Shown here piece after piece: positions 1,692 to 48,253 of a stretch of DNA of 64,000 bases (position 1 is its first letter; each line of letters starts with the position of its first letter). The position numbers and the translations under genes are program-made. This stretch comes from an uncultured delta proteobacterium. Its GTDB lineage: Bacteria; Myxococcota; Myxococcia; Myxococcales; 40CM-4-68-19. The notes under the pieces are model-generated. The model ran no database searches, had not been told where the DNA came from, and was given only the letters and a program-made list of their open reading frames with translations. The DNA lies in the NCBI GenBank assembly GCA_903911145.1, contig CAIWCD010000003.1:64642-128641 (forward strand), read 5' to 3'.

Positions 1692-1841
1692 CCCAATCGC
1701 CTCCTGTACCGCGCGGCGATGGCTGACGGTCTGCCGGGCTGCACGGCGCGCCAAGCGCGTGCAACCCCGCCATGTCAATCCAATGCGCTCAGAATGGCGA
1801 TCTCAGAACTGCACCACGCTGCGCGGCGCTGCGTGTTCAGA

Positions 1842-2066
1842 TCACCGCGCGCGATGTTCCGCAACCAGCTCTTCGTTCGCCAGCGCCCAATCCTCTTGAT
1901 CCATGCCGTGAACCATTCCGCGCGCGGCGAACTTCTCATACGCACGCTTCGCGATCGATTCGTTGGAGACGATGCTCGTCTGTGTCGGGCGCGCAGCGGC
2001 ATCGAGCATGGCCGCGATCGGTTGCTGCCGTTTCGACGAGGAACGCGTCATTGGAACTTGAGCCAT
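1842..2066 (-). CDS. DUF2934 family small protein
   Basis: A 74-residue protein. The C-terminal half (IAKRAYEKFAARGMVHGMDQ, then EDWALANEEL) matches the DUF2934 signature, a helical segment of the form IAxRAYxxxxARGxxxGxDxxDWxxAExEL. The N-terminus is basic and low in complexity. I start it at the ATG at 2066 rather than the longer 2180 start, because GAGG lies six bases upstream and the extra residues look unrelated. Function is unknown for the family; such proteins often sit near stress or signalling genes. It is read in the same direction as the CheB-CheR fusion, about 150 bases upstream of it. Confidence 0.65.
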   Translation of the reverse strand: MAQVPMTRSSSKRQQPIAAMLDAAARPTQTSIVSNESIAKRAYEKFAARGMVHGMDQEDWALANEELVAEHRAR

Positions 2067-2219
2067 AAGAGACCTCGAGGGGTTGGAGTGATGCTCTGAA
2101 GTTGTGACCAGCGAGCGAAGACAGCATCCGGCGTGCCGATGAGCGAATGCGTTGAGCGGTGTCGTTTCCGGCGTGAGCACACCGAGCGGGGCCTCGGCTC
2201 CGAAGCGCGAAGACGGTTG

Positions 2220-2249
2220 ACGTTCGCCCAGAGAACGCTCGGCGAACGT
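2220..2249. repeat. Inverted repeat ACGTTCGCC/GGCGAACGT
   Basis: Perfect 9-base arms at 2220-2228 and 2241-2249 with a 12-base spacer, in the divergent intergenic region. It could be an operator for a dimeric regulator or a small hairpin. No T-run follows, so it is not a good terminator. Confidence 0.5.
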
Positions 2250-2368
2250 TTGCCGACGCAGCGCGAGTTCGTGCGCGGTGAGGAATCAATCCACGTCCTT
2301 CGGCCTCCAGACAACACGGGGCCCCGGCACGGCGCATGCGTATCGATCGGCTGTTGCTACCGGAGCTG

Positions 2369-2395
2369 ATCTCAGACTCTGGATCTCAGGAGTCT
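2369..2395. repeat. Tandem ATCTCAG motif overlapping an AGACTC/GAGTCT inverted repeat
   Basis: GATCTCAG occurs at 2368-2375 and 2383-2390, and AGACTC (2374-2379) is inverted as GAGTCT (2390-2395). The element runs into the ribosome-binding site (CAGGAG) of the lipoprotein gene at 2400. The same half-site, read as CTGAGAT, recurs at 3028 and in a cluster at 14353-14433. Confidence 0.5.
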
Positions 2396-2399
2396 ACCC

Positions 2400-3017
2400 A
2401 TGCGACGTCTTGTGTCTGGAATCATCTCAGCCGTCGTTGTTGCCACGGCCGCTTGTGCGAATACGCAGATTGTCTCCTCCTGGCATGACCCCTCTGTCAG
2501 CAACGTGTCGTTCAAGTCTGTGATTGTGATCGCGATGGCACGCAGCGAGACGCGGCGCCGCGCGATCGAGGACCGACTGGTCTCAGACATCGAGGGAAGA
2601 GGAGCTGCGGCGACGGCCTCCTATCGACTGATCTCAAGGGAAGACACGCAGAGCCCCGACGTCGTAAAGAAGGCGATCCTCAAGGGGATGTTCGATGGCG
2701 CGGTGACCTGGAGGACGATCGGCGTGACGCTGGAGACGCAGTACATTCCTTCCATCGGCGGTCCGGGACCGCGCGGATTCTGGGGTTACTATGACGTGGG
2801 CTGGGCGTCTGAGTATTCACCCGGATATCTGCAGACCGATCGGATCGTCAGGGTGGAGACGATGATCTACCAGGTGACCCCGGGCAGCGATCGGCTCATC
2901 TGGGCGGGCACCAGCGACACCGTGGACCCTGCCTCGCTCGACAGCACGATCGACGGAGTCGCCGACGCAACCATCAACGGGATGCGTGCAGCAGGGCTGT
3001 TCGCACCGCGGCAGTAG
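2400..3017 (+). CDS. Putative lipoprotein (DUF4136-like)
   Basis: A 205-residue protein with a signal peptide and an AAC lipobox-like site near residue 19. The mature start (NTQIVSSWHDPS) and the C-terminal part (RLIWAGTSDTVDPASL followed by a helix with NGM) resemble small DUF4136/CsgG-like envelope lipoproteins. It is probably anchored in the periplasm or outer membrane. The start has CAGGAG eight bases upstream. The ppk2 gene begins 22 bases downstream, so the two are probably co-transcribed. No catalytic motif is visible and the role is unknown. Confidence 0.75.
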   Translation: MRRLVSGIISAVVVATAACANTQIVSSWHDPSVSNVSFKSVIVIAMARSETRRRAIEDRLVSDIEGRGAAATASYRLISREDTQSPDVVKKAILKGMFDGAVTWRTIGVTLETQYIPSIGGPGPRGFWGYYDVGWASEYSPGYLQTDRIVRVETMIYQVTPGSDRLIWAGTSDTVDPASLDSTIDGVADATINGMRAAGLFAPRQ

Positions 3018-3022
3018 ACAGA

Positions 3023-3036
3023 CAGGTCTGAGATTC
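3023..3036. repeat. CAGGTCTGAGATTC element, copy 1
   Basis: This 14-base sequence lies between the lipoprotein stop and the ppk2 start. An exact copy occurs at 14384-14397, between the convergent ends of the beta-barrel and response-regulator genes. It may be a regulator-binding site or a dispersed short repeat. Confidence 0.5.
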
Positions 3037-3039
3037 CAT

Positions 3040-3930
3040 ATGAGGATCGACCCTGAGAGTTTCCGGATTCCAACAGACTCCCGAGTCAGACTTAAGGACT
3101 GGCCGACCGTTTCCAAACCGGTCTACACGAGCGAGAAGGACTACCAACGACAACTTCTCTCCAGTGTCTCAGAACTCAGCGCTCTCCAGACTCTTCTCTA
3201 TGCGTCTGATAGCCACTCGCTGCTCCTGGTTTTCCAGGCAATGGACTCAGCGGGTAAGGATGGAGCGATCAGCCATCTGCTGACGGGAGTGAATCCGCAG
3301 GGCTGCGAGGTCTTCAGCTTCAGGCATCCGACTCCCGCAGAGCTGGAGCACGATTTTCTCTGGCGCACGACGCGCTGCCTGCCCGCGCGAGGTCGAATCG
3401 GAGTCTTCAACCGCTCCTACTATGAGGAAGTGCTGATCGTCCGGGTGCACCCTGAGATCTTCCGCGGTGAGCGGATTCCAGACAAGACGAAGAGCGGGGA
3501 GTCTGTCTGGACGGGACGATTCAGATCAATCGTCGAGTTGGAAAGACATCTCCACCAGAGCGGGACCCGGGTCATCAAGATCTTCCTCCACCTCTCCAAG
3601 GAGGAGCAGCGCAAGCGCTTCCTCGAGCGCATCGACGATCCAGAGAAGCAGTGGAAGCTGAGCCAGGCCGATCTCGACGAGCGCCGATTCTGGAAGCAGT
3701 ACCGGGTCGCCTACGAAGAGTGCCTCGGCGCGACGAGCACCGAGGATTCGCCCTGGTATGTCGTGCCCGCGGACGACAAGCTCAGTTCGCGCCTGGTGGT
3801 CTCCCGCATCGTCGTCGATACGCTCAAGAGCCTGAACCTCAGCTATCCGAAGGCGACGCGGGAGCGCAGACATGAGCTGCGCCGGATCCGCAAGCAACTC
3901 GTGAAGGCCGCGCCGAGGCGACCAGGGTGA
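3040..3930 (+). CDS. ppk2: Polyphosphate kinase 2 (PPK2 family)
   Basis: A 296-residue single-domain PPK2. The Walker A-like loop is AMDSAGKDG (residues 67-75), followed by the family motif FNRSYYEEVL (about 123-132) and a charged lid segment with HLSKEEQRKRFLERIDDPEK. PPK2 enzymes transfer phosphate between polyphosphate and nucleotides (AMP, ADP or GDP) in the cytoplasm. The length and single domain fit class I or III enzymes; substrate preference cannot be read from the sequence. I chose the ATG at 3040 because an upstream alternative at 2986 would overlap the lipoprotein gene. It sits just before the multihaem cluster and could buffer nucleotide energy when electron acceptors change; that link is inference. 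Confidence 0.92.
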   Translation: MRIDPESFRIPTDSRVRLKDWPTVSKPVYTSEKDYQRQLLSSVSELSALQTLLYASDSHSLLLVFQAMDSAGKDGAISHLLTGVNPQGCEVFSFRHPTPAELEHDFLWRTTRCLPARGRIGVFNRSYYEEVLIVRVHPEIFRGERIPDKTKSGESVWTGRFRSIVELERHLHQSGTRVIKIFLHLSKEEQRKRFLERIDDPEKQWKLSQADLDERRFWKQYRVAYEECLGATSTEDSPWYVVPADDKLSSRLVVSRIVVDTLKSLNLSYPKATRERRHELRRIRKQLVKAAPRRPG

Positions 3931-4009: not shown

Positions 4010-7000
4010 ATGCTACTGATCAGGGTGATGCGATCATCCAGAGCCCTCTTGTCCGCCGTCGCCTTCTTGCTTGTTGCCTGCGAGCAGGTCGCCACGTCCG
4101 CACCGAACAACACGGCGCTGACGCCGCAGACCCACGTCGCGTTCGACATCACGAGCGGCCCGCACGCCGTCGACTGCAACGTCTGCCACGGAGGTCTGCC
4201 GACCTTCCAGCAGTTCACCTGCTTCGGCTGCCATGGGGCGACCCACGACGAGACGACGACGGCGGCGCAGCACAGCGGAATCAGCCAGTACAGCTACACC
4301 AGCACCGCCTGCTACTCGTGCCACAAGAATTCGACTGGCGATGGAGGCAGCCTCCCGGTTGGTCTGATTCGCGATCCGAACAGGGACGTCACGGTGAACG
4401 CGGTGATCCCGACGTTCGCGGGCACGACGATCGCGAGCGTCTCCGCCCAGCCCGAACAGCTGCCGATGCCGTTTGATCACGCCTCGACCCAGCTGCCTGC
4501 CGGCGCGTCGGTGAGCTGCGCCGGCTGCCACGCGAATGCTGTCTCGGGGAGCTTCTATCCGGGCACGCTGCACTCGGCGCTCGCGAACCTCTCGCTCGCT
4601 CAACCGACCGGCTGCAACAGCTGCCACTTGACCTCGCAGCCGACCGGGCTCGTCGGGCCCGCCGCCACCTCGCCCGTCCGGACGCCCGCGTCGGGAGAGA
4701 TGAAGCACGACGCGGTTGCGTGGAACAATGGCGCGCCGACCTCGACCACGCTCGTGACGCAGGACTGCGCGATCTGCCACGCGAGCCCGTCGGCGACGCT
4801 CGATGCAAAGTGGACGATGGGTCTTGGCGATGGCGGACCGGCGCTGTTCCACGCGGCGCTCACGACCGCGTCTGTCGCGCAGCCCGCCTCCTGCCTCGAT
4901 TGCCACGCGAACTCGCGCCCGGCCACCGTGCTCACGTCGAGCAACGCAGCCCTGCCCGCGTCGCTACAGTTCGATCACAGCTCGAGCGCAGCAACCGGTG
5001 ATTGCAAGACCTGTCACACGAGCGGCTCGTGGACCTCGTGGCAAGGCGGCAAGTTCCACCTCGCCGGCAGCACTGCTCCGTCGACCTGTCTGCCGTGCCA
5101 CGCAGGCGAGCGGCCGACCTCGACGAGCAATTGGACGAGCACCACCTGGTCCGCGATCCCGTTTGACTACGTGACCAACGCCCAGTCGATCGGCCACGGC
5201 GACGGCCAGGACTGCGCGCTCTGCCACGCCGGACCGGGCGGCGGCGCCTGGGGAGCGACGCCCGACTGGACGGGCGGACACTTCGCGCACGCAGCCTCGA
5301 GCGTCTCGGGAACCACCTGCGTCTCCTGCCACTCGACACAGCGGCCAGACCTGCTCTCCGGCGCAACCGCCTCCAGCGCGGCCACGCTGGTCGGCTTCGA
5401 TCACGCTTCGAGCGGAACGGGCGACTGCTTTGGCTGCCATCAAGCAACCGTGACGGCGGGGACGTACGCCAACTTCAACAATCCCCAGACGCACACGCTG
5501 CCCGGCGGAGACTGGAAGGGCGGCCAGTCCTATCCGGGCTCGACGCTCACCGGCTCGACCACCGAATCGATCACGATCACCGAGTACGCGCTCACGCACG
5601 CCACCAGCAACGGCCCGATCACGGGGATCACCTCGACCTCCGCGACGCTCTACAACGAGATGCTCCACATCTCGGCGGCGGTCCCGTCGCAGCTCAACGC
5701 CGGGCCGTCGAACGCGCCGGACAACACCAAGTGCTGGCACTGCCACGTCAACAACAACGGCACCGTGACGATCTACGCAGGCGGCAAGTTCCACACGTCG
5801 CTGACCAACTTCAAGGCGACACCGGGAGGCAGCGTCTCTGCGCTGCCGCAGCCGACCACGCACTGCACCGACTGCCACACGCAGATGCGTCCGGCAGGAA
5901 TCGTCGAGGGAACCAACTCCGATCTCATCGCGATGGATCACTCGGCCACGTTCACCGGCTCGGTCACGATCGCGGGCACGTCCGTGAGCGGGGTCCAGGC
6001 GATCGACTGCTCCGTCTGCCATCACAGCCCGGGCAGCACCTGGACGGATGGGCTCTTCCACCCGAACATCTCCGGCGCGACGCCAAGCGACTGCACGAAG
6101 TGCCACTACCCGCTGATGGCCGACGCCGCGAAGGCCGACCTCGCGTCGGGCAGCAACTACACGATGAACCACCGCTCGACGCAGATGACCATCCAGGCCT
6201 GCCAGACCTGCCACACCGGCGCGCTGGCCCAGGCCGCCACGACTCCCGCGGCCTCGACGCTCTGGCACGGAGGAGTCCTGCACGGCAGCGTCTCGACGCA
6301 GCCGAGCGCCTGCGTCGACTGCCACTCGACCTCTGTTCCCGGCGCAACGCAGAGCAGCTTCAGCTACACGCTCTCCACGGGAGGCACCTCGACCAACTCT
6401 GCGCAGTGGATGAGCCACACCAGCGCTGCGGTCGTGGGCAAGGACTGCGCGGTCTGCCACGCCTCCGACGCGAAGAGCCCAGCGGGCACCTGGAGCAAGT
6501 CGATCTCGTTCCACGCAGTCGTGACGAATCCGACGACCTGCCAGGGATGCCACGGATTGACGAACGGACAGGGCAGCACGGCCGGCACGAACAACAATCT
6601 TCCTTCGGGCCTGACCAACTCCACGATGGCGTCGAGTGCGGGCAACGATTCCGCGACCGGAATCTCCTCAGGCACGCTCGATCAGATCATCCACACCGAC
6701 GTCAATGCCACCAGCCACGACTGCAACTTCTGCCACTCGCAGGTCGGCCGCTCGAATACCTCGGGCGTGCAGGGCAAGGAGTGGGCGCAGGCGAAGTTCC
6801 ACCAGAGCTTCGGCACGTCGACGCCGCTGGTCGCAAACGGAACCACGGGCCGCTGCAGCAACTGCCACATGAACGTCAAGCCGACGGCGAGCTTCACCGC
6901 GGCCGCCCACGGCGCATTCACCAATGTCTCGGGCACGCAGGACTGCGTGCAGTGCCACTCCTGGCCCGGCACCGGCAGTGCGTCTGCCCCGAACTGGCTG

Positions 7001-7504
7001 GGCGCGAGCGGAGTGCCGGCGAACATCAACGTCGGCGGATTCCCCGTCTCGCAGCCACCGGCAAGCTCGTCGACGACCGAGGGCGGAATCGCAAACCTTC
7101 CCCACCCGAGCTCGGCGACCTGCGCGAATTGCCACGCCGGAGGATCGGGCGGGAAGAACGCCACCGGCTACGACCACTCCTCATCGCTGGGCAGCAACTG
7201 CAACGCCTGCCACGAGGCCGGCACGAACCTGCTCGGCACCGTCTGGAACCAGGCCAGCAGCCAGAGCTCCGGAGCGGGAGACAGCCGTCCCTACACGCTC
7301 TCGAGCGTCACCGCGACCAAGGGCGGCTCCTCGATGAACGTCAGCACGCCCAACCATTTCTATCCGGTCAACTGCAACCAGTGCCACGTCGCGCCGTCCG
7401 GGAACGGCAACGTCACGACCGGATCGAGCTACAAGAGCGCGTGGACCTTCCCGCACAACAGGTCAGCGATGAGCAACTCGTCGACCTGCAACTTCTGCCA
7501 CTGA
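4010..7504 (+). CDS. 27-haem c-type cytochrome lipoprotein
   Basis: A 1164-residue secreted protein in which I count 27 CxxCH haem-attachment motifs spread over the whole length. A hydrophobic N-terminus ends in LLVAC, a lipobox placing the lipidated Cys at residue 24, so it is probably membrane-anchored and exposed. Spacers are rich in Ser, Thr, Gly and Asn, and many His residues (FDH, LFH and KFH segments) could serve as distal ligands. The last motif, CNFCH, is the extreme C-terminus: the stop codon directly follows the haem-ligating His. The next gene begins 22 bases later. The likely role is long-range electron transfer at or beyond the outer membrane. An alternative ATG at 4028 would give a shorter signal peptide. 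Confidence 0.93.
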   Translation: MLLIRVMRSSRALLSAVAFLLVACEQVATSAPNNTALTPQTHVAFDITSGPHAVDCNVCHGGLPTFQQFTCFGCHGATHDETTTAAQHSGISQYSYTSTACYSCHKNSTGDGGSLPVGLIRDPNRDVTVNAVIPTFAGTTIASVSAQPEQLPMPFDHASTQLPAGASVSCAGCHANAVSGSFYPGTLHSALANLSLAQPTGCNSCHLTSQPTGLVGPAATSPVRTPASGEMKHDAVAWNNGAPTSTTLVTQDCAICHASPSATLDAKWTMGLGDGGPALFHAALTTASVAQPASCLDCHANSRPATVLTSSNAALPASLQFDHSSSAATGDCKTCHTSGSWTSWQGGKFHLAGSTAPSTCLPCHAGERPTSTSNWTSTTWSAIPFDYVTNAQSIGHGDGQDCALCHAGPGGGAWGATPDWTGGHFAHAASSVSGTTCVSCHSTQRPDLLSGATASSAATLVGFDHASSGTGDCFGCHQATVTAGTYANFNNPQTHTLPGGDWKGGQSYPGSTLTGSTTESITITEYALTHATSNGPITGITSTSATLYNEMLHISAAVPSQLNAGPSNAPDNTKCWHCHVNNNGTVTIYAGGKFHTSLTNFKATPGGSVSALPQPTTHCTDCHTQMRPAGIVEGTNSDLIAMDHSATFTGSVTIAGTSVSGVQAIDCSVCHHSPGSTWTDGLFHPNISGATPSDCTKCHYPLMADAAKADLASGSNYTMNHRSTQMTIQACQTCHTGALAQAATTPAASTLWHGGVLHGSVSTQPSACVDCHSTSVPGATQSSFSYTLSTGGTSTNSAQWMSHTSAAVVGKDCAVCHASDAKSPAGTWSKSISFHAVVTNPTTCQGCHGLTNGQGSTAGTNNNLPSGLTNSTMASSAGNDSATGISSGTLDQIIHTDVNATSHDCNFCHSQVGRSNTSGVQGKEWAQAKFHQSFGTSTPLVANGTTGRCSNCHMNVKPTASFTAAAHGAFTNVSGTQDCVQCHSWPGTGSASAPNWLGASGVPANINVGGFPVSQPPASSSTTEGGIANLPHPSSATCANCHAGGSGGKNATGYDHSSSLGSNCNACHEAGTNLLGTVWNQASSQSSGAGDSRPYTLSSVTATKGGSSMNVSTPNHFYPVNCNQCHVAPSGNGNVTTGSSYKSAWTFPHNRSAMSNSSTCNFCH

Positions 7505-7526
7505 GAGAAAGCCCGACTTCGCGCTG

Positions 7527-9779
7527 ATGGAAACGCTCTTTATCGTCGGCTCTCTGTTGATCACCGTTGTCGGTGCGGTCTGGCAGCTCTCTGCGCGGCG
7601 CAAGCGACAGCTGCGCTCGGAGGCCGAGCTGGCCGAGGCGGTCGAGCAGCGGCGCACGCTCCCGCCAACGCTCTACCCGATCGTCGACCCGGACAAGTGC
7701 ATCGGCAGCCTCTCCTGTCTGAAGGCCTGCCCCGAGGGAGACATCCTCGGCATCATCGATGGCAAGGCGAAGCTCATCCACGCCGATCGCTGCATCGGTC
7801 ACGGACAGTGCGCGCTCGAGTGCCCGGTGGGCGCGATCAGATTGGTCGTCGGCACGTCGGAGCGCGGCGTCGATCTGCCCGAGGTGGACGAGTACTTCGA
7901 GTCGAGCCGCGCTGGCGTGCACGTGATCGGTGAGCTCGGTGGAATGGGCCTGATCAAGAACGCCGTCTCGCAGGGCAAGCAGGTCGGCCGCAGGTTGAGC
8001 GAGCTCGTCGAGATCGCAGCGCCCGCGGGACGCCCGGCTCCGTCCATCGAGGAGCTCGTCGACGTCGCGATCATCGGCGCGGGGCCAGCGGGACTTTCGG
8101 CGGCGGCGGAGTTGCGCTCGCTTGGTCGCTCTGTGCGCGTGCTCGATCAGCAGACGACCGGCGGAACCATCGCGCAGTATCCGCGGCAGAAGCTGGTGCT
8201 CACCGAGCCGCTCGAGTTGCCGTTCGTCGAGGGCCGCCTCGGCAAGAAGATCGTCAGCAAGGAGGAGCTGCTCGAGACGTTCCACGAGCTGGTTTCGCGC
8301 GGAGGCATCCGCGTCGAGGAGGGCGTGAAGGTCTCCGGCCTCAGCGGCAGCGACGGCGCGTTTGAGCTGATCACCGAGAAGGGCCCGGTGGCTGCGCGCA
8401 AGGTCGTGCTCGCAACGGGGCGGCGCGGCTCTCCGCGCAAGCTGGGCGTCCCGGGCGAGCAGCTCGCGAAGGTCACCTATTCGCTCGCGGACGCGGAGCA
8501 GTACGACAGCTGCGGCGTGCTGGTGGTGGGCGGCGGCGACTCCGCGGTCGAGGCTGCGGTGCAGCTCGCAGAGAAGAGCTCAGCGAAGGTCACTGTGAGC
8601 TACCGCGGCCCATCATTCACGCGCTGCCGCGCGGTCAACCAGAGGCGCATCGAGCAGCTGCGCAGCGAAGGCAAGCTCGACGTCCGCTTCAACACCAACG
8701 TCGAGAGCATCGACGAGCGCACGGTCGTCCTGCGCAGCGACGCGGGCGAAGAGATGCGGCTCGCGAACGACTTCGTGCTCGTGCTCGCGGGCGGCGAACT
8801 GCCGGTCCAGTTCCTCTCCTCGATGGGCGTCGAGATGCGCCGCTATCACGGCGAGGAGCACAAGGCGTTCAATCCAACGCAGGGCCGCACCGGCCTTGCC
8901 AAGGAGAGGCAGGCTCGCGAGGCGCGTCGACAGGAGATGTTGAACTACGTCCTCGTCGGCGCGTTCGTCGTCGCCTGGCTCTCGTGGGTGGGTCGCGGCT
9001 ACTACACGCTCAGCCAGATCGAGAGGCTGCGCTCGCCGCTGCACGCAACGCTCAAGTCCGCGGGCAGCTGGGGTCACGGCGTCGGCATCGTCGCCACGCT
9101 CGTGATGATGGGGAACTTCCTCTACCCGCTGCGCAAGCGTCACCCCAAGCTCAAGGGCGTCGGCTCGATCGCGCGCTGGCTCGACTTCCACGTCTTCGTC
9201 GGCTTCATGTCACCGCTGGTGATCGCGTTCCATGCGGCCTTCCAGTCGAAGAATCACCTCGCGACCGCGACAGCGACGGCGCTGGTGGTGGTGATGATCA
9301 CCGGCGTGATCGGCCGCTTCCTCTACGGACTCGTTCCGTCCGAGCGAGGAAGCATGCTCGAGCGGGCCGAGGTGGTGTCGCGCTTGAAGATGGAAAAGGC
9401 CCGGCTGCTGGCGCTGCTGCACGAGCGACACGATCCCGCGCGCCTCGAGGAACTCGTCGAGTGGGCGACGGGTGAGCTCTCGGCGGGATCGCTCTTCGAG
9501 TTCCTCGTTCACGCGCCCGCGCAGGCCATCCAGTTGCGTCTGCGCATTCTCGGTGTGCGCTCGATGTTCGACGATCGCCGCCAGTACAACGACTTCCGCG
9601 ACGAGCTGCTCAAGGCCTCTCTTCTGCGCACACAGGCGCGCTTCTTCGGCGGCCTCAAGAAGCTGATGGGAAGCTGGCGCATCGCCCACGCCTCGCTCGC
9701 GGTGTTCCTCGTGGTCGCGATCGTGCTGCACATCGGCGTGTCGCTCTACTTCGGCTACGGACTGGGGTCGGCCGGGTGA
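7527..9779 (+). CDS. Membrane FeS-flavoprotein NAD(P)H oxidoreductase with haem-b-like domain
   Basis: A 750-residue fusion. Order: an N-terminal membrane helix (3-20); a ferredoxin-like domain with CIGSLSCLKACP (Cys 58, 64, 68) and CIGHGQCALECP (Cys 89, 95, 99); a two-dinucleotide-binding flavoprotein domain with GAGPAG (184-189) for FAD and GGGDSA (335-340) for NAD(P); then about four to five membrane helices from residue 470, with His 517, 555, 569 and further His near the last helix (about 720-735), as in ferric-reductase or cytochrome b domains. No CxxC redox disulfide of thioredoxin reductase is present. The second Cys of each usual CxxCxxCxxxCP motif is replaced by Ser or His. The protein could carry electrons from cytoplasmic NAD(P)H across the inner membrane to the adjacent periplasmic cytochromes. 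Its stop overlaps the next GTG start. Confidence 0.88.
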   Translation: METLFIVGSLLITVVGAVWQLSARRKRQLRSEAELAEAVEQRRTLPPTLYPIVDPDKCIGSLSCLKACPEGDILGIIDGKAKLIHADRCIGHGQCALECPVGAIRLVVGTSERGVDLPEVDEYFESSRAGVHVIGELGGMGLIKNAVSQGKQVGRRLSELVEIAAPAGRPAPSIEELVDVAIIGAGPAGLSAAAELRSLGRSVRVLDQQTTGGTIAQYPRQKLVLTEPLELPFVEGRLGKKIVSKEELLETFHELVSRGGIRVEEGVKVSGLSGSDGAFELITEKGPVAARKVVLATGRRGSPRKLGVPGEQLAKVTYSLADAEQYDSCGVLVVGGGDSAVEAAVQLAEKSSAKVTVSYRGPSFTRCRAVNQRRIEQLRSEGKLDVRFNTNVESIDERTVVLRSDAGEEMRLANDFVLVLAGGELPVQFLSSMGVEMRRYHGEEHKAFNPTQGRTGLAKERQAREARRQEMLNYVLVGAFVVAWLSWVGRGYYTLSQIERLRSPLHATLKSAGSWGHGVGIVATLVMMGNFLYPLRKRHPKLKGVGSIARWLDFHVFVGFMSPLVIAFHAAFQSKNHLATATATALVVVMITGVIGRFLYGLVPSERGSMLERAEVVSRLKMEKARLLALLHERHDPARLEELVEWATGELSAGSLFEFLVHAPAQAIQLRLRILGVRSMFDDRRQYNDFRDELLKASLLRTQARFFGGLKKLMGSWRIAHASLAVFLVVAIVLHIGVSLYFGYGLGSAG

Positions 9780-11578
9780 AGTCGCTCGTCGTCGCTCTCG
9801 GAATCGCCCTGCTCTTCGGCGCCGCCGAGGTGCACGCGGACACGTTCTCGCCGGGTCCGCTCAACAAGGGGCACGCCGCGCTCGACGGCCTCGACAACTG
9901 CGCCAAGTGCCACCCGACGGGAGGTCGCCTCTCTGCCGCGCTCTGCCTTGACTGCCACACCGAGCTCAAGGATCGCGTCGCGCACGGGCTCGGCTTCCAC
10001 GGGCGCATGGAGAAATCGGAGCAGCACTGCGAGAAGTGCCACCACGAGCACCAGGGCGAGGATTTTGAAATCATCGACTGGGGCAAGGAAGGGAAGAACA
10101 AGTTCGACCACGCGAAGACCGGCTGGCCGCTGAAGGGCAAGCACGTGACGACGACGTGCAAGGATTGCCACGAGCAGCGGCTGATCGTGGCGCCCGAGAT
10201 CAAGAAGATGCTCGCCGAGCACAAGGGGCGCGCGACCTTGCTGGGCGCGGCCGCGAACTGCGCGGGCTGCCACTTCGACGATCACCGCGGGCAGGAAGGC
10301 AACGACTGCAAGCGCTGCCACGACGAGAAAGCGTGGAAGCCGGCGACGGCGTTCGATCACAACAAGGCCTCGATGGCGAGCTATCCGCTCGAGGGCGCGC
10401 ACGCAAAGGTCGCCTGCGATCAGTGCCACCAGACCGAGACGGACAGCTCGCACAACGGCGCGTTTCCCAAGCCCGTCACCGAGGTGTTCGCGCGCTACAA
10501 GCCAGTCGTGCACAGCTCCTGCGAGTCGTGCCACGTCGATCCGCACGACGGACGGTTCGGCTCAAGCTGCGAGGATTGCCACTCGGTCAATTCGTGGAAG
10601 GAGCTGCACGCGGCCAAGCACACGGCGAGCAAGGATCTCGCGTTTCACGAGAAGACCCGCTACCCGCTGCGCGGCAAGCACGAGACGGTCAGCTGCGCGG
10701 CCTGCCACGGCGCGGGGCACGGAGCGCGCTTCCGCGGCGTGCCGTTCGCGCTCTGCACCGACTGCCACGCGGATGCGCACCAGGGGCAGATGGCGAAGGC
10801 GTCGGAGATGATTCCGAACTGCGAGCGCTGCCACTCGGTGAATGGATTTCTCCCGCCGAAGTTCGAGCTCGAGGAGCACAGCAAGACGCGCTACCCCTTG
10901 ATGGGCGCGCACCAGGCGACGCCGTGCCTCTCCTGCCATCTCCACGATGCCGCGCGCGCTGCCGTCGCTGCTCCTGCCGAGATGCGCATGCAGACGAGCC
11001 GGCGAGCGCTCGCGCCGAAACTCTCTCCCGCGGTCATCCTCGTGCGCGGCGATGTGCAGCGCTGCGAGACGTGCCACAACGACATCCACGGCGGACAGTT
11101 CGACGCCTCGCGCGGCGGCGGGGCCTGCACGCGCTGCCACGTCGTCGAGAGCTTCAACACCGTCCGCTTCGATCACGCCACCGCGCGCTTTCCTCTCGAG
11201 GGAAAGCATGCGCCCGCCGCGTGCGTGGCCTGCCACAAGGCCCCGTCTGCGAACGCGCCCGTGGCCTGGCGAGGCGTACCGACAGCCTGCGCGAGCTGCC
11301 ACGCCGACGCGCACGCGGGACAGTTCGGCGCGAACTCCGACTGCGCCACCTGCCACGACGCTTCCGCGTGGAAACCCGCGCGGCGCTTCATCCACGCGCC
11401 TCCCTTCACCAACTGGCTCCTCGACGGCAAGCACATCAACGTCGCGTGCAAGGAGTGCCACCCCGAGGTGAACGTCGGCGGCGGCCTGCGCGTCGCCCGC
11501 TACAAGCCTGTGCCGCACGAGTGCGAGAGCTGCCACGCCGATCAGCACGACGGCAGCATGTCGAGGTTCTCGCGATGA
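9776..11578 (+). CDS. 20-haem periplasmic c-type cytochrome
   Basis: A 600-residue protein with a signal peptide (cleavage near AEVHA-DT) and, by my count, 20 CxxCH motifs. The motifs recur in a repeating pattern: CxxCHxDxHxGxF, then CxxCH with a nearby Trp, then FxH, PLxGxH, CxxCH. This suggests growth by duplication of a small multihaem module. The same module builds the next protein. It starts with GTG in a 4-base GTGA overlap with the reductase gene, so the two are probably translationally coupled. It is a likely periplasmic wire between the inner-membrane reductase and the outer-membrane proteins. Confidence 0.93.
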   Translation: MKSLVVALGIALLFGAAEVHADTFSPGPLNKGHAALDGLDNCAKCHPTGGRLSAALCLDCHTELKDRVAHGLGFHGRMEKSEQHCEKCHHEHQGEDFEIIDWGKEGKNKFDHAKTGWPLKGKHVTTTCKDCHEQRLIVAPEIKKMLAEHKGRATLLGAAANCAGCHFDDHRGQEGNDCKRCHDEKAWKPATAFDHNKASMASYPLEGAHAKVACDQCHQTETDSSHNGAFPKPVTEVFARYKPVVHSSCESCHVDPHDGRFGSSCEDCHSVNSWKELHAAKHTASKDLAFHEKTRYPLRGKHETVSCAACHGAGHGARFRGVPFALCTDCHADAHQGQMAKASEMIPNCERCHSVNGFLPPKFELEEHSKTRYPLMGAHQATPCLSCHLHDAARAAVAAPAEMRMQTSRRALAPKLSPAVILVRGDVQRCETCHNDIHGGQFDASRGGGACTRCHVVESFNTVRFDHATARFPLEGKHAPAACVACHKAPSANAPVAWRGVPTACASCHADAHAGQFGANSDCATCHDASAWKPARRFIHAPPFTNWLLDGKHINVACKECHPEVNVGGGLRVARYKPVPHECESCHADQHDGSMSRFSR

Positions 11579-12444
11579 GAGACATCCGCATCGCCGCGCT
11601 GCTGTTGACTCTCCTGCTCTCTGCCGCGGGGCCGCTCTTCGCCGCGCCGTCCGCCGCGCACCACGGCATGTCGACGCAGACCCACTGCGCCTCCTGCCAC
11701 GTGACGGAGAACTGGAAGACCGTCCGCTTCGATCATCTCGCGCAGACGAAAGTGGAGCTGCGGGGTGCGCACGCGCTCGCGACCTGCGCGGGCTGCCACG
11801 ACGCGGAGTTCAAGAAGGCGGTGCCCGAGAGCTGCAGCGCCTGCCACCAGGATGCGCACCGCGGAGAGTTCGGAGTGCGCTGCGCGGGCTGCCACGACGA
11901 GAACAACTGGGAGAGCCGCTTCACGGCCGACGCGCATCGCAACACGACGTTCCCTCTCAGCGGACGGCACGGAATGGTCGCGTGCACCGAGTGCCACGGA
12001 AACGTGCGCGACCGCAGCTTCTCCCGCACGGGCATTGCGTGCGTCAGCTGCCACCAGCGCGACTACGCGGCGACGACCGGCAGCTACGTCGATCACGGCG
12101 TCTACAACTTCAGCAGCGCCTGCTACGACTGCCACACGGGCTCGCGCTGGACCGGCGCGCGCTTCCGCGAACACGAGGCCTGCTTCCAGCTCGCAGCAGG
12201 CCCGCACTCGGGCGTCGCCTGCCTCGACTGCCACAGCTCACTCACGGGCGCGCGACCAAGCGGGACCTGCTCCACCAACACCGAGGCCTGCACGCACTGC
12301 CACGCGCACGCGCAGCCGAAGACCGATCAGCAGCACGCGAACGTGCCCGGATATGAGTACTCCGACCTGAAGTGCTACTCGTGCCACAAGCAGGTCGCGC
12401 CCGGCAGTACGCCCGCGGCCCGGCATCCGAGGCGGACGCCGTGA
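11575..12444 (+). CDS. 10-haem c-type cytochrome
   Basis: A 289-residue protein with a signal peptide (hydrophobic stretch ending LFAAPSAA) and 10 CxxCH motifs. The arrangement FDH, then a PLSGRH-like segment, then CxxCH resembles the repeated module of the preceding 20-haem protein, so the two are probably paralogous. A decahaem periplasmic cytochrome next to a beta-barrel gene matches the MtrA-MtrB logic of porin-cytochrome conduits, although no direct homology is claimed. The start is an ATG in an ATGA overlap with the upstream stop. An open frame extends upstream in this phase from 10156, but that part is a shadow of the 20-haem gene. Confidence 0.92.
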   Translation: MRDIRIAALLLTLLLSAAGPLFAAPSAAHHGMSTQTHCASCHVTENWKTVRFDHLAQTKVELRGAHALATCAGCHDAEFKKAVPESCSACHQDAHRGEFGVRCAGCHDENNWESRFTADAHRNTTFPLSGRHGMVACTECHGNVRDRSFSRTGIACVSCHQRDYAATTGSYVDHGVYNFSSACYDCHTGSRWTGARFREHEACFQLAAGPHSGVACLDCHSSLTGARPSGTCSTNTEACTHCHAHAQPKTDQQHANVPGYEYSDLKCYSCHKQVAPGSTPAARHPRRTP

Positions 12445-14330
12445 CTCTGCGCTCCACTGCTCGCGCAAGCGTGATCGTTCGCGCGGCTGCGCTGCTTCTG
12501 GCGTGTGCGGCTGTGCTCGCGTTCGCGACGCCAGTGCGCGCTGCCACCGCTGGCGACCCGGCAGCACGCAAGAAGGCGCGGACCGGCAAGAGCACGAGCA
12601 GCACGAAGAACACAAAGAGTACGAAGAGCACAAAGGGCACAGCGAAGACGATGCGCGGCGCGGTGCAGGAGGCGCCGAAGCGTCGGGCCGAGCCAACCGA
12701 GTCGGTGCCCGTTCGCGCGCAGCAGTCGACAGCGCCGATGCAGGCTGCGCGCCCGGGCGCGGTGCGGACGCAAGGCCAAGTCGTGCAGGTCTCCACGTCA
12801 CGCGTCTTCGTGAACGCTGGCGCACGCGAGGGGCTGCGCGTCGGACTCTCCGTCGAGCTTCATCGCGGCACGAGCCTCGTCGGAAAGTGCGCGATCGATC
12901 GGGTCGCCGATCACTCGGCCTCCTGCCACGGAGCTGCGGCCCGCGCTGGTGACCGCTTTGCGCTCGGTCCGCCGCCGCCGGGTCCGAAAGTGAATGAGCT
13001 CGCGCAGCCCGTCGGAGACGCCGAGTTGACGCGGCGACGGCGCGCGATGGAAGCGGCGCCGATGACTGGAGTCGACTTCACCGGGAGCAGTGCGATCGCA
13101 CGCTCCTCGGCACCGCGCATGTTCTTCCGCGCCGCTCAGCTCGTCTGGGCATCCACCGACGCCTCTGCCTGGGTCGGCCAGCGGCTCGACGTGCGTGTGA
13201 TCGGCGCGCAGCTCACCGACGGCAAGGGCTTCCTTCCCGCAACGACACTCTCGCTCGACATCACACTGCTGCACCTCTCAAGGCCCGACGTCGCCACCTA
13301 CCGCCCGGGCGCCGATGTGCAGCTCTTCGTCTGGGAGGCCGCGCTCGCCTCGCGCTCGCGCGAGGGCAACACGTTTGCCGTCGGGCGACTGCTGCCCTGG
13401 TATGCGCCCGGCGCCACGCGCCTCGACGGAGCGCAACTCGGCCGACGCTTCACTCCCGGATTCGAGCTCGGCATCTTCGGCGGCGGCGTCCCCGATTCGG
13501 GAACGCTCGAGCCAACCTTCTCGCGCGCGACGGCCGGCGCCTACTGGGCCCTCGACCACAACGGCGCGCACTCCGATCTCTTCCCGTACGCGAACACCAC
13601 CGGCCGCCTCGCCTGGGTGCAGTCGCCCGAAGCGGGCACGCGCATCGAGCTCGAGTCGAGTTCGATCGTGCAGCTGCGCCGCCTCGGTGATGTCGCTGCG
13701 AGCTTCCGCTTTGCGCTGGGAGATACGACGGCGCCAGGCGCGCTCGATGCGGCACGACTTTCGTTCGCGCTGCGTCCGACCGACCGGCTCTCGTTCAACG
13801 GTGCGTTCCGCTACAGCGGCGCGACGCTCCTCGAGGACACCGCGCTCCAGGTGGCCAGCGGCCCGTCACTCCACCTCGATCTCGCAGGCTCATGGGAAGT
13901 GCGCCGCACGCTGCTGCTCGGACTCGAGGTCGGCGTCGCGCAGGACGACACCGCCAACGCCTCATTCGGACGCAGCTGGTTTGGCCCGACGATCGCGATG
14001 CCGCATTTCTTCGGAGACAACGGCGGCCTCTCCGTCGGTCTCCATGTCGAGGAGGGCGACCTTCCCGGCTACAGCAGCTGGATCGGCACAACACTCTTTC
14101 CCGGCAAGCGCATCCAGTTGCTCGTGCGCGCGACTCTGCAGATCGACTCACGCACCGAGGGGCGCGACGTGACGGCGGGCATCTACTCCAGCATCCACGC
14201 GCAGCTCTTCAACCACCTCGCGCTGCAGTGCGCAGTGCAAGCGCGGATGCAGCCCGTCGCACTCGGAAACATCCCGCCGGAACTGATGGGCGGCCTGTTC
14301 GTCGACCTCGGAGCGCGCGGAGAGTTCTGA
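12441..14330 (+). CDS. Outer-membrane beta-barrel protein of the cytochrome cluster
   Basis: A 629-residue protein starting at a GTG in a GTGA overlap with the decahaem gene. It has a signal peptide (about 1-35, ending PVRAA), then a low-complexity Lys/Thr/Ser linker (KSTSSTKNTKSTKS), a small soluble segment with one Cys pair, and from about residue 290 alternating amphipathic strands ending in a terminal Phe (GARGEF). That is the usual signature of an outer-membrane barrel. No family was recognised. Its place as the last gene of the multihaem operon makes it the likely pore or sheath through which the cytochromes reach the surface. The Lys-rich linker before the barrel is unusual. Confidence 0.8.
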   Translation: MTLRSTARASVIVRAAALLLACAAVLAFATPVRAATAGDPAARKKARTGKSTSSTKNTKSTKSTKGTAKTMRGAVQEAPKRRAEPTESVPVRAQQSTAPMQAARPGAVRTQGQVVQVSTSRVFVNAGAREGLRVGLSVELHRGTSLVGKCAIDRVADHSASCHGAAARAGDRFALGPPPPGPKVNELAQPVGDAELTRRRRAMEAAPMTGVDFTGSSAIARSSAPRMFFRAAQLVWASTDASAWVGQRLDVRVIGAQLTDGKGFLPATTLSLDITLLHLSRPDVATYRPGADVQLFVWEAALASRSREGNTFAVGRLLPWYAPGATRLDGAQLGRRFTPGFELGIFGGGVPDSGTLEPTFSRATAGAYWALDHNGAHSDLFPYANTTGRLAWVQSPEAGTRIELESSSIVQLRRLGDVAASFRFALGDTTAPGALDAARLSFALRPTDRLSFNGAFRYSGATLLEDTALQVASGPSLHLDLAGSWEVRRTLLLGLEVGVAQDDTANASFGRSWFGPTIAMPHFFGDNGGLSVGLHVEEGDLPGYSSWIGTTLFPGKRIQLLVRATLQIDSRTEGRDVTAGIYSSIHAQLFNHLALQCAVQARMQPVALGNIPPELMGGLFVDLGARGEF

Positions 14331-14352
14331 ACGCGGCACGAAGAGGAGGTCG

Positions 14353-14433
14353 TCTGAGATCTCAGAGATGATGTCTGAGTAGTCAGGTCTGAGATTCTGG
14401 AGCCGGGTCGTCGCCCTCTCTCCCGATCTCAGG
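14353..14433. repeat. Cluster of TCTGAGAT elements including a 14-base palindrome
   Basis: The perfect palindrome TCTGAGATCTCAGA lies at 14353-14366. TCTGAGT follows at 14374, CAGGTCTGAGATTC at 14384-14397 (exact copy at 3023-3036) and ATCTCAGG at 14426. The cluster sits between the convergent ends of the barrel gene and the response-regulator gene. It could be a regulator-binding array, a bidirectional transcription end or a short dispersed repeat. Confidence 0.55.
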
Positions 14434-14444
14434 ATTTCGTCCCA

Positions 14445-15254
14445 TCATCCGTCCCGCGACAGCAGATAGCCGCGGCCGCGGATGGTCTTGACGTATCGAG
14501 GGTGGCGCGGATCGCGTTCGATCTTGGCGCGCAGCCGGCTGACATGAATGTCGATCGCCCGGTCGAACGACTCTTCGGCGCCGCCCGGTCCCTTGATCAG
14601 CTCGAGCAACTGCTCGCGCGATGCCGGCCGGCCCGCCAGCTCCGCAAGCGCGAGGAGAAGTTCGAACTCGCACGGAGTGAGCCGAACCGGACGGCCCTCG
14701 AGTGCGACGGTCCGCGCCGCGAGATCGATCGAAAGTCCACAGATCGCAAAGCTCTGAGGTCTGGATGGCTCCCTACCCCGCGATCTGCGGACCACCGCGT
14801 GCATCCGCGCCAGCAACACGCCTGGACTGACCGGCCTCGTTACGCAGTCATCGGCACCACATTCAAGCCAATCGATCATCTCCTCGTCGCGACCCGCATC
14901 GACCACCATGATCATCGGCGTGCGCCGTGCCACGAGGACTTCGCGCAGAAGGGTCCAGTCGCGGAGCGGGGCGCTTGCGGAATCGATCAGGAGAAGATCG
15001 AACCGCTGCGCGCGGATCGCGAACCTGGCCTCGTCCACGTCCGCCGCGACCACGAGACGAGCCCGCGGCGCGTCGGGTGAGCCGATCAAGCTCGCGCGGA
15101 GATTGCCTCCGTTCTCGATGAGCAAGGCGCGAATGAGCGACCTCGTCTGCCCAGGCTCGGTGCGAGGTTGACGCTCGTGCGTCGAGGTCCTGGTCGTGAG
15201 CTCTTCGCGGGCCACCGACAGCGGCTCCTCGGGCGCAGGAAGCATCAGCATCAT
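14445..15254 (-). CDS. OmpR/PhoB-type response regulator with degenerate receiver
   Basis: A 269-residue protein. After about 40 variable residues comes a receiver-like domain: LLIEN in place of the acidic DD pair, the presumed phospho-acceptor Asp in DLLLIDS, and VTRPVSP in place of the usual TKP, so the conserved Lys is Arg. The C-terminal winged-helix DNA-binding domain is clear (LTPCEFELL, AIDIHVSRLRAKIE, VKTIRGRGYLL). It should bind DNA, but phosphorylation-dependent switching is doubtful. The start ATG overlaps the stop of the upstream OmpA-like gene (ATGA), giving a two-gene operon. No histidine kinase is adjacent. It is a plausible local regulator of the cytochrome cluster. Confidence 0.88.
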   Translation of the reverse strand: MMLMLPAPEEPLSVAREELTTRTSTHERQPRTEPGQTRSLIRALLIENGGNLRASLIGSPDAPRARLVVAADVDEARFAIRAQRFDLLLIDSASAPLRDWTLLREVLVARRTPMIMVVDAGRDEEMIDWLECGADDCVTRPVSPGVLLARMHAVVRRSRGREPSRPQSFAICGLSIDLAARTVALEGRPVRLTPCEFELLLALAELAGRPASREQLLELIKGPGGAEESFDRAIDIHVSRLRAKIERDPRHPRYVKTIRGRGYLLSRDG

Positions 15255-15700
15255 TCCCTCGCCACGAGCACGATTTCGATCCTCCGATTCGCCGCGCGGG
15301 TGTCTGGAGTGTCATTGGAAGACACTGGCCGGAATTCCCCGTAACCGGTTGCGATCAACCGCTTCGGATCCGTGCTCGTGTTCTCCTGGAGGTATCGGGC
15401 TACAGCGGTTGCACGGGCAGTTGAGAGCTCCCAGTTCGTCGCGAATTTCTGCGCCAGCTCGCTGTTCGCTTTCTGGATCGACGCGATCTGCGCCGCGTCC
15501 GCCTTGAGCTGCCGGGTGAGATCCTGCTCGGTGGTCTTCTCGGCCTCGAGCGCCTTCTTCGCCGCGTTCAGCTCGGTCTGCTGCTTCGCGATCTCTTTCT
15601 GTGCGTCGTCAGCGCGGGTCTTCTCTTTCTGGAAGGTCCCGGTGGTGACACAGCCAACCATGCAGAGCGAGACGACAGCCATCTGCAAAACACGAATCAC
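15251..15700 (-). CDS. OmpA-domain lipoprotein with coiled coil
   Basis: A 149-residue protein, taken from the GTG at 15700, which has GGAG upstream and gives a proper lipoprotein signal (MAVVSLCMVGC). Residues about 30-85 form a Lys/Glu/Gln-rich coiled coil. The C-terminal 60 residues match the second half of an OmpA/MotB peptidoglycan-binding domain (ELSTARATAVARYLQ, GYGEFRPV, NRRIEIVL). The first strand of that domain, with the usual LF and S/D motif, is absent or replaced by the coiled coil. It is probably outer-membrane anchored, with weak or no peptidoglycan binding. It is translationally coupled to the response regulator. Confidence 0.78.
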   Translation of the reverse strand: MIRVLQMAVVSLCMVGCVTTGTFQKEKTRADDAQKEIAKQQTELNAAKKALEAEKTTEQDLTRQLKADAAQIASIQKANSELAQKFATNWELSTARATAVARYLQENTSTDPKRLIATGYGEFRPVSSNDTPDTRAANRRIEIVLVARE

Positions 15701-15894
15701 GATGTGCTCCAGCGTTGAAAAGAACCGGGCCGCGCGGCCGGCAATCAGTCCTTGCAGGTCCAACGATCAACACCACCGTAGCCGCTTGCCACATTCGAAT
15801 CAAGATCATTGGAGGTCCAAGCATCTGGTTGCGCGCCCAGCACGCGTGTGCTAGATCAGCGCAGAGCTGTTCCCCTGAATCGACGGAGGATGCC

Positions 15895-16374
15895 GTGATT
15901 CGCATGGTCATCAGTCTGCTGTTGGTTGTGCTGGCCGCCTGCTCGCAAGCGCAGAAAGTTCCTGAGCCCCCACCGCAGGTCGCCGCAGCCCCGCCGCCCG
16001 TCGCGACGCCACCGAAAGCCGCCCCGGCTTCGACGCCAGCTCCGGTCGCCGAGGTGCCCCCGGCGGCAGCGACTCCGACGCTTCCGGAGAGCCTCTATTT
16101 CCTCTACGACAGCTCGACGATCTCCTCCGCGGACACCGAGCCGCTCTCTCAACTCGGGCGGTTTCTCGCCAACCATCCCGCGACAAAGCTGCGGATCGAG
16201 GGGAACTGCGATGAGGAGAACCACAGCTGGACCTATGAGTACCGGATCCTCAACCCGCACCAGGTTGGATCTCTGGTTCTTCATTTCGCACCAGAAGGGA
16301 CCCTGACGGACTACACACTCAACACTCCGTTTGAGGACGAGACAAAGCCGCTCGACTCTGCCCTTGCTCAATAG
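15895..16374 (+). CDS. Pal-like lipoprotein with incomplete OmpA domain
   Basis: A 159-residue protein starting at GTG 15895, with GGAGGA upstream. The signal peptide ends at an AAC lipobox, then about 50 Pro/Ala-rich residues lead to the start of a Pal/OmpA domain (LYFLYDSSTIS, then LRIEGNCDEE). After this the expected NxxLGxRRA helix is missing and the sequence diverges (YEYRILNPHQVGSLVL). I found no obvious single frameshift that restores the domain, so this may be a decayed or repurposed Pal paralogue. Its 3' end overlaps the proposed ClC start. Confidence 0.65.
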   Translation: MIRMVISLLLVVLAACSQAQKVPEPPPQVAAAPPPVATPPKAAPASTPAPVAEVPPAAATPTLPESLYFLYDSSTISSADTEPLSQLGRFLANHPATKLRIEGNCDEENHSWTYEYRILNPHQVGSLVLHFAPEGTLTDYTLNTPFEDETKPLDSALAQ

Positions 16375-37602: not shown

Positions 37603-38010
37603 CTAACGCACGCCCTTTTGAATGAGGTGCGGCGCGTACTTCTTATCCGAGCCCTGGATATGATCGATCAGCCAGGCATTGAGGAACTTCAGCGTCTCCA
37701 TCGAGACGGCCGCCTTCCCTGACTCAAAGTCCTTCTTCAGTCCCAGCGCCTGCTTGGCAAGCTCCGTGTGCTGGCGCACGTGTTCTTCCTTATCGCCATA
37801 CCCATGCTGCCGGAAGAGACTCTCCTCGAAAGCGAAGTGCTCCTTCGTATACTCGACAAGGCCGCCGAACACCTTGGCGAGAACCTCCTTGGACTTCCCG
37901 TCTTTCATTGCATCGGCGAGGTCGTTGACCAGGCCAATCAGCTTCTTATGCTGCGCGTCGATCGAGTCAATCCCCACCGAGATGCTGGGATTCCAGACAA
38001 TAAAAGCCAT
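37603..38010 (-). CDS. Bacteriohemerythrin
   Basis: A 135-residue stand-alone hemerythrin. Di-iron ligand motifs are all visible: His 21 in DAQHKKL, HFAFEE, HVRQHTEL and HIQGSDKKY. The protein binds oxygen reversibly at a non-haem di-iron site and can store, deliver or sense O2. It is the last gene of the chemosensory block, separated from the CZB gene by 182 bases with a strong hairpin. A paralogue lies at 47846. Confidence 0.93.
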   Translation of the reverse strand: MAFIVWNPSISVGIDSIDAQHKKLIGLVNDLADAMKDGKSKEVLAKVFGGLVEYTKEHFAFEESLFRQHGYGDKEEHVRQHTELAKQALGLKKDFESGKAAVSMETLKFLNAWLIDHIQGSDKKYAPHLIQKGVR

Positions 38011-47845: not shown

Positions 47846-48253
47846 TTACTTCGCCGCCGCGTGCTCCTGGACATACTTCGCGTAGCGCATATCAACGCCG
47901 AGGATATGTCCGGTCAGCCAGCGCGCGAGGAAGTCGAAGAGCTTCTCCCCGGCAAGCTGCCCACCTGCCATATCCCGACGGAATCCCTGCAGGCTGGCCA
48001 CAAGCGCCTGGTGCAGCGAGCGGTGCATCGACAGCTGGGGATAGGACATCGCGCCCATATACTTCTCTTCGTCCCGGAAATGCTCCGCCGTGTAGTTCAT
48101 GAAGTCGTCGAGCGCCTCGAGGCACTGCGCGAGCGGCGCCTTCGCGGTGATGAGCTCATAGGTGCGGTTCATCTTGGCGATGAGGATCTTGTGCTCCCCA
48201 TCCATCTCGTCAACGCCAAGCTTGTACTTCGCATTCCATTCGAAGAAGCTCAT
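47846..48253 (-). CDS. Bacteriohemerythrin, second copy
   Basis: A 135-residue hemerythrin with all di-iron ligand motifs: DGEHKIL, HFRDEEKYM, HRSLHQAL and HILGVDMRY. It is diverged from the copy at 37603 but the same length. It is probably an oxygen-binding or oxygen-delivery protein. Read divergently from the DUF2946-like gene. Confidence 0.92.
   Translation of the reverse strand: MSFFEWNAKYKLGVDEMDGEHKILIAKMNRTYELITAKAPLAQCLEALDDFMNYTAEHFRDEEKYMGAMSYPQLSMHRSLHQALVASLQGFRRDMAGGQLAGEKLFDFLARWLTGHILGVDMRYAKYVQEHAAAK

Follow-up and report, generated by a model that had tools for sequence, protein, structure and literature searches.

A candidate PCC3-type electron conduit with a putative NAD(P)H-linked entry in an uncultured member of the Myxococcota

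From which cellular donor would a trans-envelope multihaem conduit be fed if its inner-membrane component carried a flavoprotein? The question is raised by a 5-gene operon in a stretch of 64,000 nt from contig CAIWCD010000003.1 (GCA_903911145.1; positions 64,642-128,641, forward strand) of an uncultured Myxococcota bacterium. This whole stretch is referred to as the window, and positions given without a locus name are window positions. The operon encodes a lipoprotein cytochrome (LP27), a membrane reductase (RED), 2 further multihaem cytochromes (C20 and C10), and a predicted outer-membrane barrel (BAR) (Table 1). It resembles the hypothetical porin-cytochrome conduit class PCC3. Clusters of that class combine a porin and an inner-membrane protein with 2 cytochromes, one extracellular (median 34 haems) and one periplasmic (median 21 haems), and in the published model their electron path stops at the quinone pool (PMC5566968; PMC10734462, on the Gallionellaceae pangenome; PMC12442390). 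We consider it fairly probable that the operon encodes a PCC3-type trans-envelope conduit in which the inner-membrane entry is an NAD(P)H dehydrogenase, not a quinol oxidase, and electrons flow outward to the cell surface.

Table 1. Genes of the operon and the Fe-S motifs of RED, in window positions.
Feature	Position	Strand	Details
LP27, 27-haem lipoprotein, predicted surface cytochrome	4010-7504	+	1164 aa; 27 CxxCH, lipobox LLVAC
RED, FeS/FAD/NAD(P) membrane reductase	7527-9779	+	750 aa; 0 CxxCH
Fe-S motifs of RED	7698-7826	+	C58-x2-S61-x2-C64-x3-C68P; C89-x2-H92-x2-C95-x3-C99P
C20, 20-haem periplasmic cytochrome, predicted periplasm-spanning wire	9776-11578	+	600 aa; 20 CxxCH
C10, 10-haem cytochrome, predicted in or at the barrel	11575-12444	+	289 aa; 10 CxxCH
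BAR, predicted outer-membrane beta-barrel (porin-like), signal peptide and small N-terminal beta domain	12441-14330	+	629 aa; 0 CxxCH

A sequence-only reading of this DNA had described 5 same-strand genes for cytochromes of 27, 20, and 10 haems, a reductase, and a barrel, with the last 4 genes linked by 4-base stop/start overlaps. Open reading frame translation and CxxCH counts, on gene calls made by a simple script, bear this out, with 57 motifs in total (27 + 20 + 10) and overlaps of GTGA at RED/C20, ATGA at C20/C10, and GTGA at C10/BAR; a 22-base gap separates the end of LP27 from the start of RED. The haem counts are not a product of chance because residue-shuffled versions of the cytochromes (2000 shuffles each) averaged only 0.12-0.24 CxxCH (0.12 for LP27), with a maximum of 3. 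GC content at third codon positions was 0.82-0.90 across the 5 genes, and the translations of C20, C10, and BAR begin with signal-peptide-like N termini. The best start of BAR is the GTG at 12441, and a longer reading frame is possible from 12372. A search for sigma-70 promoters gave zero matches, terminator matches stayed at chance level, and the Rfam search gave no match. Clusters of TCTGAG/CTCAGA, a sequence rarer than chance overall, flank the operon (684-3173 and 14353-14758) and hold 14 of the 20 window copies, with none inside the operon.

RED combines a YpdA-like FAD/NAD(P) domain (Pfam Pyr_redox_3, 5e-45) and 2 ferredoxin-type motifs (Fer4_10, 9e-11) with 1 N-terminal and 5 C-terminal transmembrane segments. 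The membrane half carries W551-H555-x13-H569 (WLDFH) on its third segment, W717-H721-x13-H735 (WRIAH) on the fifth, and TGVIG (592-596; T592-G593-x2-G596) on the fourth. Across 34 homologues, RED has invariant His and Cys residues. Both Fe-S motifs are without the usual second Cys; in 38/38 Myxococcota REDs its place is taken by Ser in the first motif (Ser61) and by His in the second (His92). The type of the clusters, or their ligands, may therefore be out of the ordinary. In homologues in which the membrane half and the flavoprotein are encoded by separate genes, the second-motif His is nearly constant and the first-motif position varies between Ser, Thr, and Cys. RED scored 159.7 bits against the YpdA bacillithiol disulfide reductase family (TIGR04018), under its cut-off of 339.9, and the relationship with YpdA appears confined to the FAD/NAD(P) domain. 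The YpdA relatives, together with an invariant Arg360, suggest NADPH rather than NADH as the cofactor. An AlphaFold2 model of RED from 3 sequences reached a pLDDT of 53, and no statement about the fold is based on it. At one further locus (L079), a RED homologue of 49% identity has no cytochromes after it, and a RED-type reductase may serve another acceptor there. Apparent RED-C20 gene fusions at loci L082 and L086 were rejected as proof of contact, since the joining residues are frame-shifted sequence; the frameshifts fall within the RED C-terminus and are perhaps assembly errors.

Bis-histidine low-spin electron wires need 1 extra conserved His per haem. We identified 20/20 CxxCH motifs plus 21 further invariant His in C20 (30 homologues aligned), with all 20 motifs also invariant between phyla; 10 motifs plus 10 further conserved His in the alignment of C10 homologues; and, in LP27, 26/27 motif His kept at ≥90% along with 27-28 further conserved His (12 homologues). 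Extra His residues numbering about 1 per haem point to bis-His wires in all 3 proteins. LP27 matches Pfam MtrC/MtrF domain II/IV over 8 stretches (E 3e-31), and its lipobox recurs in homologues; homologues of 26-31 haems adjoin many loci, with shorter lipoproteins of 8-13 haems at others. The C10 homologues beyond Myxococcota are longer, mostly with 16-51 haems. Neither C20 nor LP27 had a match in phmmer searches against the PDB.

The barrel proposed in the sequence-only reading agrees with a model of moderate confidence. The AlphaFold2 model of BAR from 3 sequences (mean pLDDT 55, pTM 0.45, core strands mostly 70-89) has a helix for the signal peptide, a small beta domain, and, over residues 301-627, an extended series of beta hairpins, and in comparisons by Foldseek and VIA-align the listed matches were mainly outer-membrane barrels (Z 13.4-15.6). 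The C-terminal antiparallel strands of the model resemble those of such barrels, and BAR is predicted to be an outer-membrane beta-barrel. It matched no Pfam or NCBIfam family, including the MtrB/PioB porin family (TIGR03509), and the BAR profile found nothing significant among PDB sequences. A scan of its own genome with TIGR03509 also gave no match, a weak negative as the control searches were silent too. With a BAR family hidden Markov model, homologues adjoining cytochromes were found in other phyla (E down to 1e-28), with a profile-profile probability of 99.7%. A periplasmic or outer-membrane redox role without extracellular respiration, such as supply to peroxidases, disulfide or metal detoxification, or charge storage, would accord with the proposal that large multihaem proteins act as capacitors (PMC2330069) and with the likeness of the RED flavin domain to a disulfide reductase. 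We regard such a role as very unlikely, as the operon includes no substrate-reducing enzyme and such a role would have no need of the conserved barrel or the surface-type lipoprotein.

Gene order, the check that the sequence-only reading had proposed, proved to be kept as RED, C20, C10, and BAR, and the parts recur in other phyla. RED was identified at E < 1e-100 in 47/195 Myxococcota genomes. Of 35 Myxococcota loci, 34 have C20 directly after RED, 31 have C10 no more than 3 genes away from RED, and 29 have BAR no more than 5 away. Large LP27-like proteins occur at 13 of the 35 loci; at others, the barrel is preceded by a short cytochrome of 8-13 haems in which a lipobox can often be seen. The RED tree largely tracks taxonomy and pairs the window RED with a paralogue from its own genome as sister (support 99/99). 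The paralogous operon (locus L114, on the contig numbered C10 in our set, 8679-16130) has a convergent lipoprotein of 2472 aa and 57 CxxCH, in which 3 regions match LP27 at 50-53% identity, which suggests internal duplication. An orthologue is also present in a record of uncultured Anaeromyxobacter, and further orthologues belong to what we take to be metal-reducing Anaeromyxobacter strains; the Anaeromyxobacter group comprises known metal reducers.

Outside Myxococcota, the membrane half and the flavoprotein are encoded by adjacent genes on plasmid pEMTOL02 of Emticicia oligotrophica (Bacteroidota), followed by cytochromes of 23 and 40 haems, with a CcsA/ResB cytochrome-assembly gene upstream. 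The split reductase was identified in 8 further genomes of other phyla. In most of 18 neighbourhoods, the membrane protein and the flavoprotein occur together with C20 (about 19-23 haems) and a long cytochrome resembling C10, and BAR is usually there too. We surveyed 39 and 199 genomes centred on 2 non-Myxococcota loci with the split reductase, groups that may overlap with each other and with the Bacteroidota. The flavoprotein was found in 16/39 and 16/199 genomes and C20 in 15 and 14, respectively. Every genome with C20 also encodes the flavoprotein, 15/15 in the smaller set (p 6e-10) and 14/14 in the larger (p 1e-19), with p values that treat genomes as independent.

The membrane signature of RED is common to PCC3 and PCC4 proteins modelled as quinone-active, and di-haem b proteins often contact quinone, so the b-haem domain might exchange electrons with menaquinol as in the PCC3 model, with the flavoprotein as a regulatory or auxiliary entry. 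We judge this quinone-linked arrangement improbable, because most Myxococcota encode the flavoprotein and the membrane domain as one fused protein, most other loci encode the two side by side, and the flavoprotein co-occurs in 29/29 genomes.

In the NAD(P)H-linked conduit that we prefer, with cofactor, electron direction, subunit contacts, and substrate all inferred by us, cytoplasmic NAD(P)H would reduce the FAD of RED, and electrons would pass through the Fe-S clusters to 2 stacked b-haems held by 4 His on the third and fifth segments, an arrangement shared with NADPH oxidases and ferric reductases. From the periplasmic side of RED, electrons would move to C20, which would span the periplasm, then to C10, lodged within the BAR barrel of the outer membrane or resting against it, and then to LP27 at the surface. 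LP27 would hand them on to an acceptor outside the cell, for example Fe(III), Mn(IV), humics, or a partner cell; quinone would have no part in this path. The sequence-only reading had proposed a complete extracellular electron transfer system with a pyridine-nucleotide reductase; support comes from synteny that extends across phyla, from the conservation of the haem ligands, and from the modelled barrel and the lipoprotein signal, and the interpretation as a whole is partly supported. We favour outward flow, which is downhill, since NAD(P)H reduces strongly and a membrane that is negative inside helps electrons to leave. Such flow would itself conserve little or no energy, so the conduit probably serves to balance the redox state or to dispose of electrons quickly.

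The same wires could be read in the opposite direction, so that electrons enter from partner cells, minerals, or Fe(II) and are used by RED to reduce NAD(P)+ or ferredoxin for biosynthesis. Multihaem wires conduct in both directions, RED contains ferredoxin-type clusters, and PCC3 was proposed by He et al. 2017 for Fe(II) oxidation (PMC5566968). However, reduction of NAD(P)+ would be uphill from typical multihaem potentials, the inside-negative membrane opposes electron entry, the operon is without a pump or bifurcating partner, and orthologues occur in the metal-reducing Anaeromyxobacter group. We regard reverse flow as unlikely.

Several observations weigh against an NAD(P)H-fed outward conduit, in addition to the assumption of independent genomes behind the co-occurrence p values. 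In the model of He et al., the PCC3 inner-membrane protein is linked to quinone, and RED may still have a quinone site. The gene for the flavoprotein does not always lie with the other conduit genes, and some C20-like wires (26-27 haems, beside a barrel) have no flavoprotein. The models of RED and BAR are of low to moderate confidence, and the operon also occurs in lineages not known for metal reduction (family f6 in our numbering). The cytoplasmic module of the conduit is exchangeable, in view of the C20-like wires without a flavoprotein and of a locus (L109:5510-7492) near a 27-haem cytochrome in which a di-haem-b membrane protein is fused to cyclic nucleotide-binding and several Fe-S domains. 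As a broader and more tentative proposal, which we would put at slightly under an even chance, PCC3-type conduits in Myxococcota, Bacteroidota, and at least 2 further groups would be dedicated quinone-independent wires from NAD(P)H to the outside, each with a NOX-like dehydrogenase, C20, a porin-cytochrome gate, and unusual Ser/His Fe-S motifs.

Variant loci were also identified. At locus L120, a reading frame of 1549 aa with 60 CxxCH, in which C20-like and C10-like parts appear merged, lies beside a barrel-like gene, a di-haem-b membrane protein, and a flavoprotein. At L107:3247-5773, a small di-haem-b membrane protein and a 16-haem C20-like cytochrome have Fe-S genes and genes like those of cytochrome bd as neighbours, and may be used there without a barrel. 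A match on a Pseudoalteromonas plasmid was set aside, as the flavoprotein there is in an unrelated context.

A flavoprotein that is conserved, often adjacent, and in most Myxococcota fused would make pyridine nucleotide, rather than the quinone of the PCC3 model, the metabolic link of the conduit. With an entry of NAD(P)H type, the direction, the energy yield, and the physiological role of the conduit can each be tested directly. Such an entry would offer a candidate extracellular electron disposal route for myxobacteria, which are best known as aerobic soil predators, and a compact quinone-free conduit for bioelectronics. Elsewhere in the window, 2 hemerythrin-domain proteins on the minus strand (37603-38010 and 47846-48253) flank a gene group that includes CheB, and 51808-58752 encodes an OmpA-family protein of 2314 aa with DUF11, Ig, and cadherin-like repeats.

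We compared the operon with known conduits and related enzymes. MtrCAB, MtoAB, and PioAB work in a similar way, through a decahaem cytochrome and its barrel, to which MtrCAB adds a surface cytochrome, but the family searches suggested in the sequence-only reading separate them from the window operon. Against MtrA/DmsE (TIGR03508, cut-off 192.2), C20 scored 41.3 bits and C10 31.2 bits; LP27 scored 23.7 bits against OmcA/MtrC (TIGR03507, cut-off 209.3); BAR has no MtrB/PioB match; and the proposed entry is not of the CymA/quinol type. With scores this far under the Mtr family cut-offs, membership in MtrCAB was rejected. The Pcc systems of Geobacter and Anaeromyxobacter (OmbB-OmaB-OmcB; Adeh_3392) also pair a porin with a periplasmic multihaem cytochrome, but with 8 or 12-14 haems and no such reductase (PMC4245776), and the Anaeromyxobacter pcc cluster (Shi et al. 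2014, PMC4245776), of only 2 genes and 12-14 haems, was rejected as a match. Skennerton et al. 2017 described an operon that combines cytochromes of 16 and 26 haems with a beta-propeller and a peptidyl-prolyl isomerase (PPIase); it was likewise rejected, as the window locus has neither propeller nor PPIase. NOX and FRE enzymes resemble RED in their FAD-NAD(P) module and in a membrane domain with 2 Hx13H pairs for 2 b-haems, whereas RED has ferredoxin-type motifs, a YpdA-like flavin fold, and, as its likely acceptor, a periplasmic 20-haem cytochrome; RED had no match to Pfam ferric reductase.

The closest resemblance is to the conduits described by He et al. 2017, who likened the PCC3/PCC4 inner-membrane signature to the di-haem ferric reductase/NOX domain (PMC5566968). 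PCC4 has an inner-membrane protein with the same His motifs and, in subgroup II, an adjacent Fe-S gene, but its cytochromes have 4, 5, and 10 haems, none is extracellular, and its other redox genes differ. The PCC3 inner-membrane protein has 5 transmembrane segments, 2 WX3HX13H motifs on the third and fifth, and SGxxG on the fourth. RED shares this plan, with Thr for Ser in SGxxG and an extra N-terminal segment. The PCC3 porin stands beside a periplasmic cytochrome of about 21 haems and an extracellular one of 10-85 haems, as BAR does beside C20 (20) and LP27 (27), and homologous loci elsewhere, mostly with cytochromes of 20-23 and 16-51 haems, fit the same layout. Published PCC3 clusters, however, comprise 4 genes with no reported flavoprotein, whereas the membrane protein in the window is fused to an Fe-S/FAD/NAD(P) flavoprotein and the operon adds a separate 10-haem cytochrome along with the 27-haem lipoprotein. 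We found no description of a flavoprotein link to such conduits in the open-access PMC literature. The earlier statement that the locus matches no nameable system thus holds for the flavoprotein and the arrangement of C10 plus lipoprotein, which are absent from PCC3 descriptions, but not for the organisation as a whole, which fits the hypothetical PCC3 (PMC5566968). Compared by description, the operon probably belongs with PCC3 by layout, haem numbers, and membrane signature; this kind of conduit is thus probably known already, and what is new is probably its entry through a flavoprotein of the NAD(P)H type.

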